NCBI GenBank assembly: GCA_017649325.1
Contig: JAGCHA010000096.1
Span: forward strand, 1-45,278
DNA: 45,278 nucleotides
DNA from: Ruminococcus sp.
GTDB lineage: Bacteria > Bacillota > Clostridia > Oscillospirales > Ruminococcaceae
Direction: 5' to 3'
The position numbers and the translations under genes are program-made. Below the pieces are notes generated by a model. That model ran no database searches, was not told the DNA's origin, and worked only from the letters and a program-made list of their open reading frames with translations. Shown here piece by piece: positions 1 through 3,432 of this stretch; the stretch's first letter is position 1; each line of letters opens with the position of its first letter.

Positions 1-69
1 AAGTTTGTGACTGATGTTATTCCTGATGACAATGAGAAGATGGAGTATCTGCAAAAGGCATTAGGTTAA
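1..69 (+). pseudogene. 3' remnant of a phage/plasmid (P4/D5-type) primase-like gene
   Basis: The frame open at base 1 reads KFVTDVIPDDNEKMEYLQKA then LG and stops at 67-69. The pattern of a hydrophobic stretch, then PDD, then a short helix ending YLQ..LG resembles the start of the helicase part of P4-family primases, where the sequence normally goes on (GY.LTG) for some 200 residues. If that match is right the gene is truncated. The match rests on 22 residues only, so this is a weak call. The rest of the gene is outside the window. Confidence 0.3.
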
Positions 70-199
70 ATGGTCGAACTGAACGTAATGTTATTGTTGG
101 CTACAAATTACGAAGTGTGAATTATTCACGGGACTATTTTGAATAATCCAGTATTAAATAGTTTACAATGAGAATACACATTTTTCACGGTAGCGTAAG

Positions 200-254
200 G
201 TGTACAATAACAGTGTACACTTATGATATCACTCAGTTTTGTAAGTGATATCAT
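200..254. repeat. Two adjacent inverted repeats at the 3' end of the 67-residue gene
   Basis: GTGTACA (200-206) pairs with TGTACAC (214-220) across 7 bases. ATGATATCACT (223-233) pairs with AGTGATATCAT (244-254) across 10 bases and covers the stop codon of the minus-strand gene at 229. Neither arm is followed by a clear T run on either strand, so they are not convincing terminators. They may be protein-binding or transfer sites of the element. Confidence 0.5.
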
Positions 255-432
255 CGACTGTGACTTTGAGATTTCCATCTGCGGTGACAGCTACTTTCAA
301 ATCGCAGTTTTTAAGCTGCTTAATCTCTGCAAGAAGCTCCTTAATCTTTTCCACGGATACAGTTTGAACTCCGGTAACGCCGCTAATATCAGTAGCAGCA
401 CAGATGTTGCGCTTTCTTATAAGTCTGATCAT
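229..432 (-). CDS. Small hypothetical protein of the element (67 aa)
   Basis: The frame is open further upstream, but the start at 432 is chosen because GGAGGTGATT lies directly before this ATG. The protein begins MIRLIRKRNICAATDISGVT, then has a charged amphipathic helix (EKIKELLAEIKQLKNC) and a beta-rich end (KVAVTADGNLKVTVDDITYK). No known family is recognised. The helix next to a short beta hairpin could be a dimerisation unit. It lies within the AT-rich end of the integrated element together with two other small genes and the recombinase. Accessory roles such as directionality factor or regulator are possible but not shown. Confidence 0.65.
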   Translation of the reverse strand: MIRLIRKRNICAATDISGVTGVQTVSVEKIKELLAEIKQLKNCDLKVAVTADGNLKVTVDDITYKTE

Positions 433-599
433 ACAATCACCTCCATAATAGTAATTATAAAACAACTGAATCCAGGTTAGATCCTGCTTAGTCAGATGCA
501 TATACTACGGTTTAGTATTTGCATTTGACTTTGCGGTGCTCTTATATTATTATATAAGGTTAAACAATACGAATCAGGTTTATGAATACATTTATAACA
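433..599. other. AT-rich intergenic stretch with two stem-loops
   Basis: No gene is seen. ATGCATATACTA (496-507) pairs with TAGTATTTGCAT (513-524) with one mismatch, and CTTATAT (541-547) pairs with ATATAAG (552-558). The stretch lies between two small minus-strand genes. Terminator or promoter roles are not resolved. Confidence 0.4.
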
Positions 600-809
600 T
601 CAATGAGGTTTGATGTTTTCAATCAGAAGATCTTCAGTGGCTTGATACAGGTCCGTTTCTCCTGACAGAAAATAAACGACTTTACGTTTAGGATCTTGCA
701 CACTTTTCCGTATCTGAGCAGTTAGTTGATGAAGATCCAGTTGCTCTTGTTCTTCGTTTGTTAGCCAAACGGTAATTGGCTTTTTACTTCCGTTGTTGAT
801 AATTTCCAT
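600..809 (-). CDS. Small hypothetical protein (69 aa), paralogue of the gene at 918-1142
   Basis: The ATG at 809 is preceded by AAGGAGTTGTTACT, a good ribosome site. The protein reads MEIINNGSKKPITVWLTNEE at its start and has a conserved-looking end around VVYFLSGETDLYQATEDLL. It aligns over nearly its full length with the divergently transcribed gene at 918-1142: VWL against IWL, EQ, RK, F.SGE, L...TE.LL..N. The two are therefore diverged paralogues facing away from each other. No named family is recognised. It belongs to the element's accessory genes. Confidence 0.65.
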   Translation of the reverse strand: MEIINNGSKKPITVWLTNEEQEQLDLHQLTAQIRKSVQDPKRKVVYFLSGETDLYQATEDLLIENIKPH

Positions 810-880
810 AGTAACAACTCCTTGTATAGTATTGCTGAGAGAAAGCTGTTCCTCAGTTACATATATATAAGGTTGTTTTG

Positions 881-896
881 TATTCCGACCGGAATA
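881..896. promoter_or_regulatory. Candidate operator: perfect palindrome between divergent paralogues
   Basis: TATTCCG (881-887) and CGGAATA (890-896) form a perfect dyad with a 2-base centre. It lies in the space between the two divergent small genes, about 20 bases before the plus-strand start, which is where a repressor site would be expected. No promoter boxes are clear beside it. The binding role is inferred. Confidence 0.4.
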
Positions 897-917
897 ATAC
901 GAATATTAAAGCCCAAA

Positions 918-1142
918 ATGAAGAATAGGGAGGCGATAGCTATCGAAGTTTATGTAAATGATGTCGGTAAGAGAGTAGAAATATGGCTGAGTCACAGCGA
1001 ACAGTCTGACGATGAAGTAACAGAATTAGTTGATGAGATTTGCGGGAACTATTCTGAGCGGAAGTATCGCGCGGCTGTATTCATTTCGGGGGAATGTTCG
1101 TTGGAAGAATGCACTGAGTATTTGCTGTGCAGTAATCTATGA
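918..1142 (+). CDS. Small hypothetical protein (74 aa), paralogue of the gene at 600-809
   Basis: The frame is open from 822, but homology to the paralogue begins only near the residues IEVYVNDVGKRVEIWL, so a late start is preferred. ATG 918 is the last ATG before that block, and no ribosome site precedes it. GGGAGG lies just after it (929-934), followed by an ATA where an ATG would give MAIEVYV. The start is therefore doubtful and may be weakened by mutation. The conserved end is AAVFISGECSLEECTEYLL. Function is unknown. The gene is followed closely by the recombinase promoter region. Confidence 0.55.
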   Translation: MKNREAIAIEVYVNDVGKRVEIWLSHSEQSDDEVTELVDEICGNYSERKYRAAVFISGECSLEECTEYLLCSNL

Positions 1143-1154
1143 TAAAAGGACGAA

Positions 1155-1221
1155 AAATATCGCTTTGCTCTTGATTTTTGTATTATAATATGATACAATG
1201 ATAATGAGCGAAGCGATATTT
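1155..1221. repeat. 16-base inverted repeat enclosing the recombinase promoter
   Basis: AAATATCGCTTTGCTC (1155-1170) and GAGCGAAGCGATATTT (1206-1221) are inverted copies with a single mismatch. The 35 bases between them contain exactly the promoter of the recombinase gene, so the right arm begins about where transcription should start. It could be a pair of repressor sites, a long-loop hairpin ending the upstream gene, or an invertible promoter segment, although 35 bases is short for inversion. Confidence 0.7.
1171..1199 (+). promoter_or_regulatory. Promoter of the serine recombinase gene
   Basis: The -35 box is TTGATT (1171-1176) and the -10 box TACAAT (1194-1199), with a 17-base spacer. 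Both lie inside the 16-base inverted repeat. Confidence 0.6.
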
Positions 1222-1249
1222 ATGTTTTAATATTGAAGGAGATGAGGCA

Positions 1250-2992
1250 ATGGATTATAAATACAAGGTTGCAGGTTACTGCCGTATCTCGGTGGACGAG
1301 GATCTTGACCGTGACAACACCTCCATCGAGAATCAGAAGGAGATAATCCGTGACTTCGTTCAGCGTAAGTTCCCGGGTTGTCCGCTCGATTTCTACGAAG
1401 ACCGTGACCGTTCAGGCTACACATTCGAGCAGCGTGAGGGCTATCAGGAGCTCCGCAAAAAAATGCTGCGACTGGAGTATGATATACTTATCGTCAAGGA
1501 CTTCTCACGTTTCAGTCGTCGTAACAGCAAGGGACTTGTCGAGCTTGAGGATCTCCGTGACGCTGGAATGCGTATCATTTCAATAGGCGACAGCATAGAC
1601 TATCCTACCTATGATGACTGGACGGCGATACAGTTCCGTTTCCTTATCAATGAGATGCCTGTTACGGACACTTCAAAGAAGGTCAAGTCTGTGATCAAGC
1701 GGCGTCAGGAGGAAGGCAAGTGGATATGTGCTGTTCCATATGGGTATATCATGCAGAATGCCAAGACACAGAAGTTCATAGTGGACGAGCCAGCAGCAGA
1801 GATAGTACGTGAGGTTTTCAATCTCTACGTTCAGGGGTGGGGGTATCAGAAGATAGCACATTACCTGACCGACAAGCATATCCCGACTCCGAATATGGCA
1901 GAGAAAATGCGCCGTGAGGCAAACGGAGAGGAGTGCCATATCAAGGCAAAAGAGGCGTGGAGCGCTGTTACGATAAGCGAGATGCTTTCCAATGATTTCT
2001 ACATCGGCACGCTCAGGCAACGCAAGTACAGGCGGAAGAAGATAAACGGAGAGCCGGAAAAGCTTCACGAGACGGAGCATCTTGTATTTGAGAATAATCA
2101 CGAAGCGATAGTTGACTACAGGCTCTTTTCACAGGCTCAGGAGCAGCTTGAAAAGCGTTCGAAGTCTAATTACCGCGGTGTGAAGAAATATGAAAATGTG
2201 TACTCAGGCTGTATTTACTGCGGCGACTGCGGAGCTCCGATGTTCGCAATGAGCCGTTCAACACTGTCGCCTGCATATCGCTGCGGAACATACCACAGGC
2301 AGGGCGTGAAGGGCTGCACCTCGCATCATACGAGAGTAGATATGCTTGACGGGTTGCTAAAAGAGTATATCAGGAAGGTTCGTGATAACTCTTCGGATAT
2401 GCTTAAACAATTGCAGGAAGCAATTGACAAGACTCAGACCGAAACTGATTCCAGTAAGAACCTTATTGATACTTTGGAACAGCAGATTGATGATGCAAGG
2501 CTTGAAATAAAAATGCTGACCCGTCAGCAGGCGAGGGAAACTATACTCCACCCGGAGCGTGAAGAAATCCTCGATGAGATATACACCGAGCAGATAGATG
2601 AGTTGACATTACGTATAGAGGGATTGAGAAATCAACTCCAAATGGCTGCGGACAAGCATAATACATTTATCAAGACTAATCGTATTGCGAAGAGAGTAAT
2701 TGAGGTATTCGACGACATACTTGCAAAGAAAAGTTTATCAAAGAGCGATGTCGGCTTCATTATCGATAAAATAGTTGTTTACAATGACCGCATAGAGATT
2801 CGCTTGAAAGCAGATATAGACAGGCTGCTCCGCTGCGGAATACCTGCCGAAGCCGTTCTCGTTGCGGCAGGAGAAAACGCAAATTTTGAGCAAGGCACGG
2901 AAACAACCGAAATGAGCCGTTTATCGCCCATATACGGAATAAAAAGGGCGATATTTTCCGTGTCAATGTGGTCAGTGACGGCGACCCCTTAG
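1250..2992 (+). CDS. Large serine recombinase (TndX/TnpX-type site-specific recombinase)
   Basis: This enzyme cuts and rejoins the element's attachment sites through a serine-DNA link. The N-terminal resolvase domain (about 1-150) has the motif GYCRISVDED with likely catalytic Ser14, and RSGYTFEQREGYQELRKKML plus KDFSRFSRRN typical of the family. A recombinase domain follows (about 160-280, with PYGY and SNDFYIGTLRQ). A zinc ribbon (CIYCGDCG near 320, then YRCGTYH and GCTSHHTR) comes next, then a coiled coil near 380-480. The start has AAGGAGATGAGGCA before ATG. The last residues and the stop (2990-2992) lie in DNA that, in the next frame, already encodes spoVT. The C-terminal tail is thus probably completed by host sequence. 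Confidence 0.95.
   Translation: MDYKYKVAGYCRISVDEDLDRDNTSIENQKEIIRDFVQRKFPGCPLDFYEDRDRSGYTFEQREGYQELRKKMLRLEYDILIVKDFSRFSRRNSKGLVELEDLRDAGMRIISIGDSIDYPTYDDWTAIQFRFLINEMPVTDTSKKVKSVIKRRQEEGKWICAVPYGYIMQNAKTQKFIVDEPAAEIVREVFNLYVQGWGYQKIAHYLTDKHIPTPNMAEKMRREANGEECHIKAKEAWSAVTISEMLSNDFYIGTLRQRKYRRKKINGEPEKLHETEHLVFENNHEAIVDYRLFSQAQEQLEKRSKSNYRGVKKYENVYSGCIYCGDCGAPMFAMSRSTLSPAYRCGTYHRQGVKGCTSHHTRVDMLDGLLKEYIRKVRDNSSDMLKQLQEAIDKTQTETDSSKNLIDTLEQQIDDARLEIKMLTRQQARETILHPEREEILDEIYTEQIDELTLRIEGLRNQLQMAADKHNTFIKTNRIAKRVIEVFDDILAKKSLSKSDVGFIIDKIVVYNDRIEIRLKADIDRLLRCGIPAEAVLVAAGENANFEQGTETTEMSRLSPIYGIKRAIFSVSMWSVTATP
2922..2953. repeat. 8-base inverted repeat beside the element/spoVT junction
   Basis: TATCGCCC (2922-2929) and GGGCGATA (2946-2953) pair perfectly across 16 bases and are followed by TTTTCC. 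It lies inside the last codons of the recombinase and 15 to 20 bases before the spoVT sequence. It could be an arm of the recombinase attachment site or a weak terminator. Confidence 0.5.
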
Positions 2993-3432
2993 AGATATAC
3001 ACAAACAGTGAGGGCGAGGTAATATTCAAGAAATACTCGGCTATGAGCGAGCTCAGCGAGAACGCGGCAAACGTGGCGGAGGTAATGTACAAGACGGCGG
3101 GGTGTCCCGTGGTGGTGTTTGACAAAGACCACGTAGTCGCGTCGGCAGGAGTACCGAAGCGCGAGTTTGCGGAGCGTCGCGTTACTGCGCAGTTGGAGGA
3201 GCTCATGGACAGCCGCCGGCAGTTTTTCTGTCCCGACGGGCGGAGCAACAGTTTCTTTCCTGCGGAGGGCGTGGAGCGCACGGCTATCGCCGCTGTGCCG
3301 ATAATCACGGCGGGCGATGTGTCAGGAGCTGTAGCCTTTATGACGTCGGACAAGGGCTCGGAGGCGACAGATCTGCAAAAGAGCCTGATCACGGCGGCGG
3401 CGCAGTTCCTGTCGAAGCAGATAGAGGGCTGA
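2968..3432 (+). pseudogene. spoVT: spoVT, 5'-truncated by element insertion (rest of hinge and GAF domain)
   Basis: SpoVT is a transcription regulator with an AbrB-like swapped-hairpin DNA-binding domain followed by a GAF-like domain. Here the frame begins only at SDGDPLEIYT, which corresponds to about residue 30 of the family, and continues GEVIFKKYSAMSELSENAAN into the GAF-like part (VVFDKDHVVASAGVPKREF, AAVPIITAGDVSGAVAF) to a normal end. The first half of the AbrB domain, including the RIDDLGRVVIPKEIRR-type core known from the family, is missing. The recombinase occupies that place in another frame. There is no ribosome site at the GTG of 2968, so the fragment is probably not made as such unless the element is excised. 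The identification is firm; loss by insertion is a strong inference. Confidence 0.85.

Follow-up and report, generated by a model that had tools for sequence, protein, structure and literature searches.

Islands carrying their own large serine recombinase interrupt the sporulation gene spoVT at one exact spot in Ruminococcus relatives from gut and rumen, which, judged by the genomes compared here, makes the phenomenon much more general than a first, sequence-only reading of a single contig could reveal. Comparative sequence evidence demonstrates the split in relatives, its site and phase, a conserved coding tail, att-like element ends and horizontal spread. We consider it probable that a recombinase-bearing island resides in spoVT, that its attP lies within the recombinase gene, that integration exchanges the ends of the two genes reciprocally and that excision would restore both.

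Layout of the spoVT junction in the window

The window, i.e. the whole stretch of DNA analysed (45,278 nucleotides), is the entire contig G000:C73 from base 1 and belongs to a draft genome of 143 contigs that is 84% complete. The following features were identified near its beginning:

1..2985 (+): integrated element, right end; boundary from comparison with 30 attL/attR pairs of relatives; the contig begins within the element
229..501 (-): ORF of 90 aa inside the element; matches to Pfam, PHROG and NCBIfam all sub-threshold
600..809 (-): second member of the small-ORF family, in opposite orientation; no significant Pfam, PHROG or NCBIfam family
918..1142 (+): small ORF of ~74 aa, candidate recombination directionality factor; no significant Pfam, PHROG or NCBIfam family
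1171..1199 (+): putative sigma-A-like promoter driving the recombinase gene, TTGATT - 17 - TACAAT, its second hexamer preceded by TG
1250..2992 (+): large serine recombinase ORF of 580 aa; Resolvase 7-158, Recombinase 182-303, Zn ribbon 318-375; phrog_95 integrase
2960..2968 (+): att arm on the recombinase side, GTGTCAATG; contributes one of the two halves of the inverted repeat predicted for attP
2980..2987 (+): att core GGCGACCC, whose inner GA is invariant on either side in 30/30 pairs
2980..3432 (+): spoVT from codon 31 through its stop (3' part), encoding the SpoVT_C (GAF-like) domain

The presence of Resolvase, Recombinase and zinc-ribbon domains places the window recombinase among the large serine recombinases. 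Upstream of it, the ORFs at 600-809 (-) and 918-1142 (+), the latter with a start codon picked by the analyst, encode members of the same unnamed small-protein family and point apart.

The initial observation that spoVT resumes right behind the recombinase near residue 30 was confirmed: GDPLEIYT begins at 2980, which corresponds to codon 31 of the spoVT family as counted on intact relatives, and the stop codon lies at 3430-3432. The SpoVT_C profile is covered over its full 128 positions (E 8.9e-35), and TIGR02851 is matched from model position 27 through its end. Also as described before, the N-terminal AbrB-type DNA-binding part of SpoVT is absent from the window; in the rest of the genome, the N-part search gave no match besides the 2980 junction itself, and a MazE/AbrB profile search gave nothing above cut-off. 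The lack of a 5' part had been named beforehand as counter-evidence to the split, but it is taken as neutral, because the genome is incomplete and, with a single SpoVT_C match, yielded no full-length spoVT copy either. As the contig starts inside the element and the draft shows no 5' part, we infer the split in the window genome from its relatives only. The window recombinase and spoVT are in different frames, since the window differs by one base in length near 2910 from R. flavefaciens YRD2003, in which the fused recombinase-spoVT frame is open. Compared with the fused ORF in that strain, the last ~23 residues of the window recombinase ORF are read in another frame.

Split spoVT genes in relatives

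In the genus set of 36 genomes (G000-G035), a SpoVT_C match was obtained in 29. The C-part lies behind a recombinase in seven of them (G000, G002, G008, G011, G015, G019 and G021), and the other 22 encode an intact spoVT reading MKATG or MRATG; G008 contains an intact copy besides the split form. When named genomes were searched for relatives of the window recombinase, 43 loci were obtained, some of which belong to the same genomes as the genus set. SpoVT_C lies directly behind the related recombinase in 38/43 loci: the recombinase reads in frame into spoVT in 36 (35 to the stop codon and L093 to the contig end), and the frame is broken in L087 and L117. The separate spoVT frame described after the recombinase holds for the window, whereas one continuous frame was found in these 36 loci. 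No SpoVT_C is present directly behind the recombinase in L090, L109, L118, L126 and L128. L109 is not a spoVT insertion, as it lies elsewhere and its genome has an intact spoVT. In L128:1091-3419, an intact spoVT is preceded, at a distance of 0.8 kb, by the small ORF together with a recombinase truncated at ~214 aa, which might represent a remnant or an earlier insertion.

A separate N-part was identified in 29 of the 40 genomes with such loci, an intact gene in three and neither in eight, so that the predicted upstream 5' part, lacking with neutral weight in the 84% complete window genome, is found in many of its relatives. N- and C-part are located on one contig and strand in 8/29 genomes, with the N-part 11.6-57.3 kb upstream. 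They are R. bicirculans 80/3, whose chromosome II is complete (NZ_HF545617.1; cores 20.2 kb apart), R. flavefaciens strains ATCC 19208 and 007c, with 18.2 kb and 54.3 kb between the cores, respectively, and five metagenome-assembled genomes (11.6, 12.9, 24.4, 25.0 and 57.3 kb). Outside the genus, at least eight frames over 700 aa occur among the matches listed, and all eight, from eight genera, are recombinase-SpoVT_C fusions; the catalytic-domain motif was read in 6/8, and the other two were judged from their tails. N-parts are present in six of these eight genomes, three of which have them on the contig and strand of the C-part (14.1, 19.4 and 20.7 kb), one being a one-contig genome (G242). 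G354 has the same contig coordinates as G479 and is probably the same genome.

Chance adjacency of recombinase and SpoVT_C is excluded by the 38/43 named loci together with the 8/8 fused frames elsewhere. An assembly or binning artefact, in which two unrelated contig pieces were joined, might be suspected of a window that comes from a 143-contig draft and begins inside the element. The same junction, however, occurs in isolates, on the complete chromosome of R. bicirculans 80/3 with the N-part 20.2 kb away, and in the one-contig genome G242; the complete chromosome and the one-contig genome refute an artefact for the relatives, and we regard this explanation as extremely improbable. The originally proposed splitting of spoVT by a serine-recombinase element is thus firm in relatives, where 8 + 3 genomes carry the two parts on a single contig in the same orientation and with a common core, and by these comparisons both the split and the insertion site can be considered settled there.

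Insertion site and predicted attP

Among 30 N/C pairs, whose att sequences were anchored by codon, the attL core is GGCGACCC in 19/30 and a one- to three-base variant of it in 11/30. When the element ends are joined, the core becomes flanked by the arms of an inverted repeat (GTGTCAAYG...CATTGACAC), and this junction represents the predicted attP; in G008, the joined ends form a perfect 16-base inverted repeat. The best 14-mer match of the joined ends is at least 11 in 26/29 pairs vs 1.4% of shuffled right arms, with lower values in G478 (10), G474 (7, arm lost) and G008 (8, but 14 in the correct orientation). The recombinase-side att arm is kept in 28/30 pairs and lost in G452 and G474.

Two loci deviate from the common arrangement. 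In G474:C20 (L110, L168, L169, L263), the right att arm is deleted and the recombinase-spoVT frame is still open. Nearby are a second N-like part, which is degenerate, and part of a second tail, and the element is perhaps locked. In G389:C25 (L261, L262), an attL-like unit made up of spoVT promoter, N-part and tail occurs twice, at a distance of 20.6 kb; the two copies share 248 bp at 95% identity, and one of the tails looks decayed.

We propose that the island's own large serine recombinase would insert it, in one orientation, at GGCGACCC, i.e. spoVT codons 31-33. After integration, spoVT would retain its forespore-type promoter with the initial ~31 codons at one end of the element, and codon 31 to the stop would follow the recombinase at the other; SpoVT would be off while the element is integrated.

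Predicted exchange of gene ends upon integration

Because the predicted attP falls within the 3'-terminal part of the recombinase gene and is in phase with the spoVT target, integration would be a reciprocal swap of gene ends. The recombinase would lose its own last ~28 residues and acquire the spoVT C-domain, the spoVT stub would acquire the recombinase tail, and precise excision would restore spoVT and the recombinase gene together. Such a swap is strongly supported by the sequences flanking the core. Behind the core at the far end of the element, 29/29 readable tails are open in the spoVT/recombinase phase and reach a stop within 41 codons, and G452 has none. Twenty-five of the 29 tails were aligned and share GDPSLTxLTxExxFCxAxxxIAxRLxI; of the four omitted tails, those of G474 and G486 resemble the aligned ones, and those of G467 and G483 (2/29) match the common motif poorly. 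Beyond the att arm, pS is 0.60 vs a pN of 0.094 in close pairs (18 pairs from 27 tails, which are not independent), and the alternative frames are interrupted by stops in 27/27 (+1) and 17/27 (+2) tails. The recombinase side of the core is also coding, with a linker dN/dS of 0.35 over 15 pairs. A recombinase gene running without interruption into its own tail was not found. The simplest reading is that the far-end tail and the recombinase constitute one gene, which would be split at attP by integration, and the tail would hence presumably belong to the recombinase.

The recombinase-SpoVT_C protein might itself be under selection as a working fusion, with the SpoVT sensor tuning the recombinase and restoration of spoVT being secondary. 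The frame kept into spoVT in 36/43 loci, the linker dN/dS of 0.35 and L110, which lacks the att arm yet has an open fused frame, are consistent with this. However, the recombinase's own tail needs the same phase, so the fusion may be a by-product, and the frame is broken in the window, L087 and L117; we regard selection for the fusion as unlikely.

If the gene ends are indeed swapped, integration could potentially rewrite the integrase, which would carry its own tail on the circle and the SpoVT sensor (GAF-like domain) in the chromosome. These forms might differ in activity or direction, and the state of the DNA would therefore be remembered in the enzyme. Excision acting on a forespore gene would then be inherited by the spore, resulting in a heritable and reversible on/off switch of sporulation that mobile islands would spread from species to species. 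We put this extension forward only tentatively.

Probable excision and constraint on the split gene

The G008 assembly contains an intact spoVT on a 294-kb contig plus two contigs ending in spoVT that represent both element junctions; the first 95 bases of the attL contig, and the last 158 bases of the attR contig from the core on, are identical to the intact gene. This suggests that two forms of one spoVT locus are present in the sequenced DNA, with a strain mixture as an alternative. Searches with a pattern that fits 16/29 predicted junctions yielded no attP junction in viral contigs (0) or in 396 family genomes (0). This absence is not strong evidence, because the pattern fits only these 16; it does fit the predicted attP of G008, yet no attP or circle junction was found in that assembly. 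The earlier suggestion that excision restores spoVT is backed indirectly by the intact gene and both junctions of G008, the attP-like ends and a spoVT promoter kept in 26/29 split genomes, and lacks an attP junction. Live excision appears likely on the strength of one assembly (G008), and any link of excision to sporulation timing would be putative.

Between the window and R. flavefaciens YRD2003, both of which have a split gene, dS is 0.38 for the recombinase and 0.49 for spoVT_C, and dN/dS of spoVT_C is 0.046, which would fit selection acting on the split spoVT. Split genomes have a median spoVT_C dN/dS of 0.19 (43 pairs) vs 0.10 in intact ones (14 pairs); the split spoVT_C seems constrained, perhaps slightly relaxed, and part of this signal may stem from the history before insertion. 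As proof of selection while split, the dN/dS argument is weakened, because the islands evidently spread horizontally.

The slightly relaxed-looking split spoVT_C (median dN/dS 0.19 vs 0.10) would also be expected of a one-way parasite that enters spoVT and effectively never leaves, whereby its carriers would no longer sporulate normally and both pieces of spoVT would be decaying. Such a parasite is consistent with the lack of a circle junction in viral contigs and the 396 family genomes, with the loss of the right arm in G452 and G474, and with recombinases younger than the host genes, so that intact-looking pieces may only mean recent insertion. Nevertheless, G008 shows both forms, the window and YRD2003 are both split with similar dS (0.38 and 0.49) and a spoVT_C dN/dS of 0.046, the promoter is kept in 26/29 and the att arms in 28/30, which makes permanent residence improbable in our view.

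Promoters and a candidate directionality factor

A forespore-type promoter (G[ACT]ATA and an AAATA[AC]TA-like element) was identified upstream of spoVT in 47/51 genomes, including 21/22 intact and 26/29 split ones. Spacings of 12-18 were allowed in this search and all 47 took one same spacing; a few matches are far from the start codon and may be due to chance. By the general consensus of such promoters, it is a putative sigma-F/G promoter. Because spoVT keeps its forespore-type promoter, excision in the forespore would be inherited by the spore.

The sigma-A-like promoter of the window recombinase is weak on its own (1 found vs 0.7 expected from shuffles), and relatives have similar -10 boxes. 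Half-sites resembling the att arm are present in 26/37 recombinase leaders vs 1.2 expected, with a pattern chosen after viewing the sequences, which suggests that the recombinase might bind its own control region (autoregulation). These half-sites lie between promoter and start codon, e.g. in L092 and L107.

Members of the small-protein family (~70 aa) were matched in 42/51 loci searched, several of which represent the same genome counted twice. The nine loci without a match comprise the intact-spoVT contig L036, short contigs, and also L086, L118, L121 and L125, for which >1.7 kb of upstream sequence is available. A small ORF is located 96-322 bp upstream of the recombinase in 30/35 loci listed. 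We infer that this protein is a candidate directionality factor, which would control the direction of recombination.

A sporulation-controlled directionality factor combined with a constitutive recombinase would restrict excision to sporulation, as in a skin-like developmental element. C. difficile skin is described as having a similar layout, with the recombinase under sigma-A and a directionality factor that limits excision to the mother cell (PMC5025042). The sigma-A-like recombinase promoter in the window and the small conserved ORF upstream of the recombinase agree with this, and the hosts encode Spo0A (Spo0A_C in 24/26 genomes) and SpoIVA (25/26). In contrast, a forespore promoter for the small ORF is weakly supported, since a spoVT-type promoter precedes it in few cases (6/34 upstream regions reach at least 9 bits and 8/34 pass a shuffle p of 0.05), and spoVT looks forespore-expressed, so timely excision would be heritable, unlike that of skin. 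A strictly skin-like mode is thus conceivable but doubtful.

Mobility and cargo of the islands

The recombinases are much closer to each other than the host spoVT genes in 14/15 pairs, e.g. dS 0.44 vs 2.66 (L102/L104); these pairs were chosen for recombinase similarity and overlap, and one of the 14 has a saturated spoVT. The reverse pattern, with spoVT closer than the recombinase, was observed for L091/L095. G455 contains an 18.6-kb island (L090, G455:C11:1384525-1403093), of which 3.8 kb show 93.6% identity to the R. bicirculans right end. It is inserted at a secondary core outside spoVT, just past the end of another ORF; as the spoVT of this genome is intact elsewhere, L090 is ruled out as a free form. 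The closer relationship of the recombinases than of the host spoVT genes, together with the G455 insertion, indicates that islands move and can use secondary sites.

Thirty loci with recombinase relatives were identified in viral contigs, eight of which were read: L175, L176 and L177 run into spoVT, L195 is a fragment, and L179, L180 and L189 are distant. L178, on a viral-collection contig, ends inside the att core just past the recombinase arm; such ends may mark mixed forms. A phage collection gave 504 records, all with <60% identity, the two best being one integrated in spoVT and one ending before the site. Likewise, all 318 recombinase-related plasmid records show <60% identity.

The cargo differs in each element read. 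A radical-SAM/ABC/methyltransferase set is present in ATCC 19208, proteins with PP2C and von Willebrand domains together with a tyrosine integrase and a transposase in R. bicirculans, type I restriction and adenylating enzymes in 007c, and dockerin proteins and a GH3 enzyme in Horse_feces202. In the two largest elements (73/84 listed ORFs), no structural phage or conjugation family occurs among the 25/67 PHROGs and 25/102 Pfam families listed, and the cargo looks non-viral. The 57-kb element of G463:C1 (L170-L172) encodes dockerin proteins, a GH3 enzyme and a glucuronyl esterase-like protein; fibre-degradation genes may thus travel by such islands.

Comparison with known systems

According to one survey, sporulation intervening elements cut sigK, spsM, spoVFB, gerE and yabG (PMC10747680), and spoVR is described as a further split sporulation gene (PMC5025042). 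With spoVT joining these few genes, the gene-intervening theme is extended to Ruminococcus and relatives from gut and rumen, a type of bacteria said to have been regarded as non-sporing until recently (PMC5814915). In a literature search by title and abstract start, mostly without subscription journals, we found no spoVT-intervening element and no paper pairing spoVT with a serine recombinase. The new aspects are the predicted attP in the recombinase gene with its exchange of gene ends, the retained forespore-type promoter and the varied, non-viral-looking cargo. As spoVT of C. difficile is reported to be controlled by forespore sigma factors, with a mutant that lacks heat-resistant spores (PMC3789822), spore formation in Ruminococcus would depend on excision in the inherited cell line.

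Similar to skin (sigK), vfbin (spoVFB), SP-beta (spsM), gin (gerE) and yin (yabG), as these are described, the spoVT island cuts a sporulation gene at a short core, carries its own large serine recombinase beside one junction and would be expected to encode a small directionality factor. Phage-related genes are usual in such elements, although gin is described as being without them (PMC5595907); for the spoVT elements, no phage structural family occurs among the families listed. In contrast to these elements as described there, its target has a forespore-type promoter, whereas sigK, gerE and the SigK-controlled yabG are mother-cell genes; furthermore, its predicted attP lies inside the recombinase gene, the ends would be swapped in frame and the cargo varies by genome.

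As in active lysogeny and other phage regulatory switches, the host regulator would be turned on and off by an insertion that is reversible. Unlike in active lysogeny, no phage structural families occur among those listed in the spoVT islands, and reversibility is putative here.

Staphylococcal cassette chromosome (SCC) islands have their chromosomal site in rlmH. They share with the spoVT islands, whose cargo looks non-viral, a variable cargo of non-viral kind, a fixed chromosomal site and a large serine recombinase, but the spoVT element cuts its host gene. The window recombinase does not qualify as a Ccr protein (score vs cut-off in bits: CcrB 115.3 of 900, CcrC 94 of 900, CcrA 68 of 700).

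Finally, archaeal SSV-type suicidal integrases are characterized as tyrosine recombinases that are exclusively archaeal and are left as inactive halves (PMC8371274). The spoVT islands resemble them in having a predicted att site within the integrase gene, which would be split by integration. They differ in that the enzyme is a bacterial serine recombinase, which keeps its catalytic, recombinase and zinc domains and would lose a short tail. The spoVT islands would thus represent a bacterial equivalent of these archaeal systems that is based on a serine recombinase, and they provide dozens of natural sets of recombinase, attB and att ends for studying how such enzymes choose direction.
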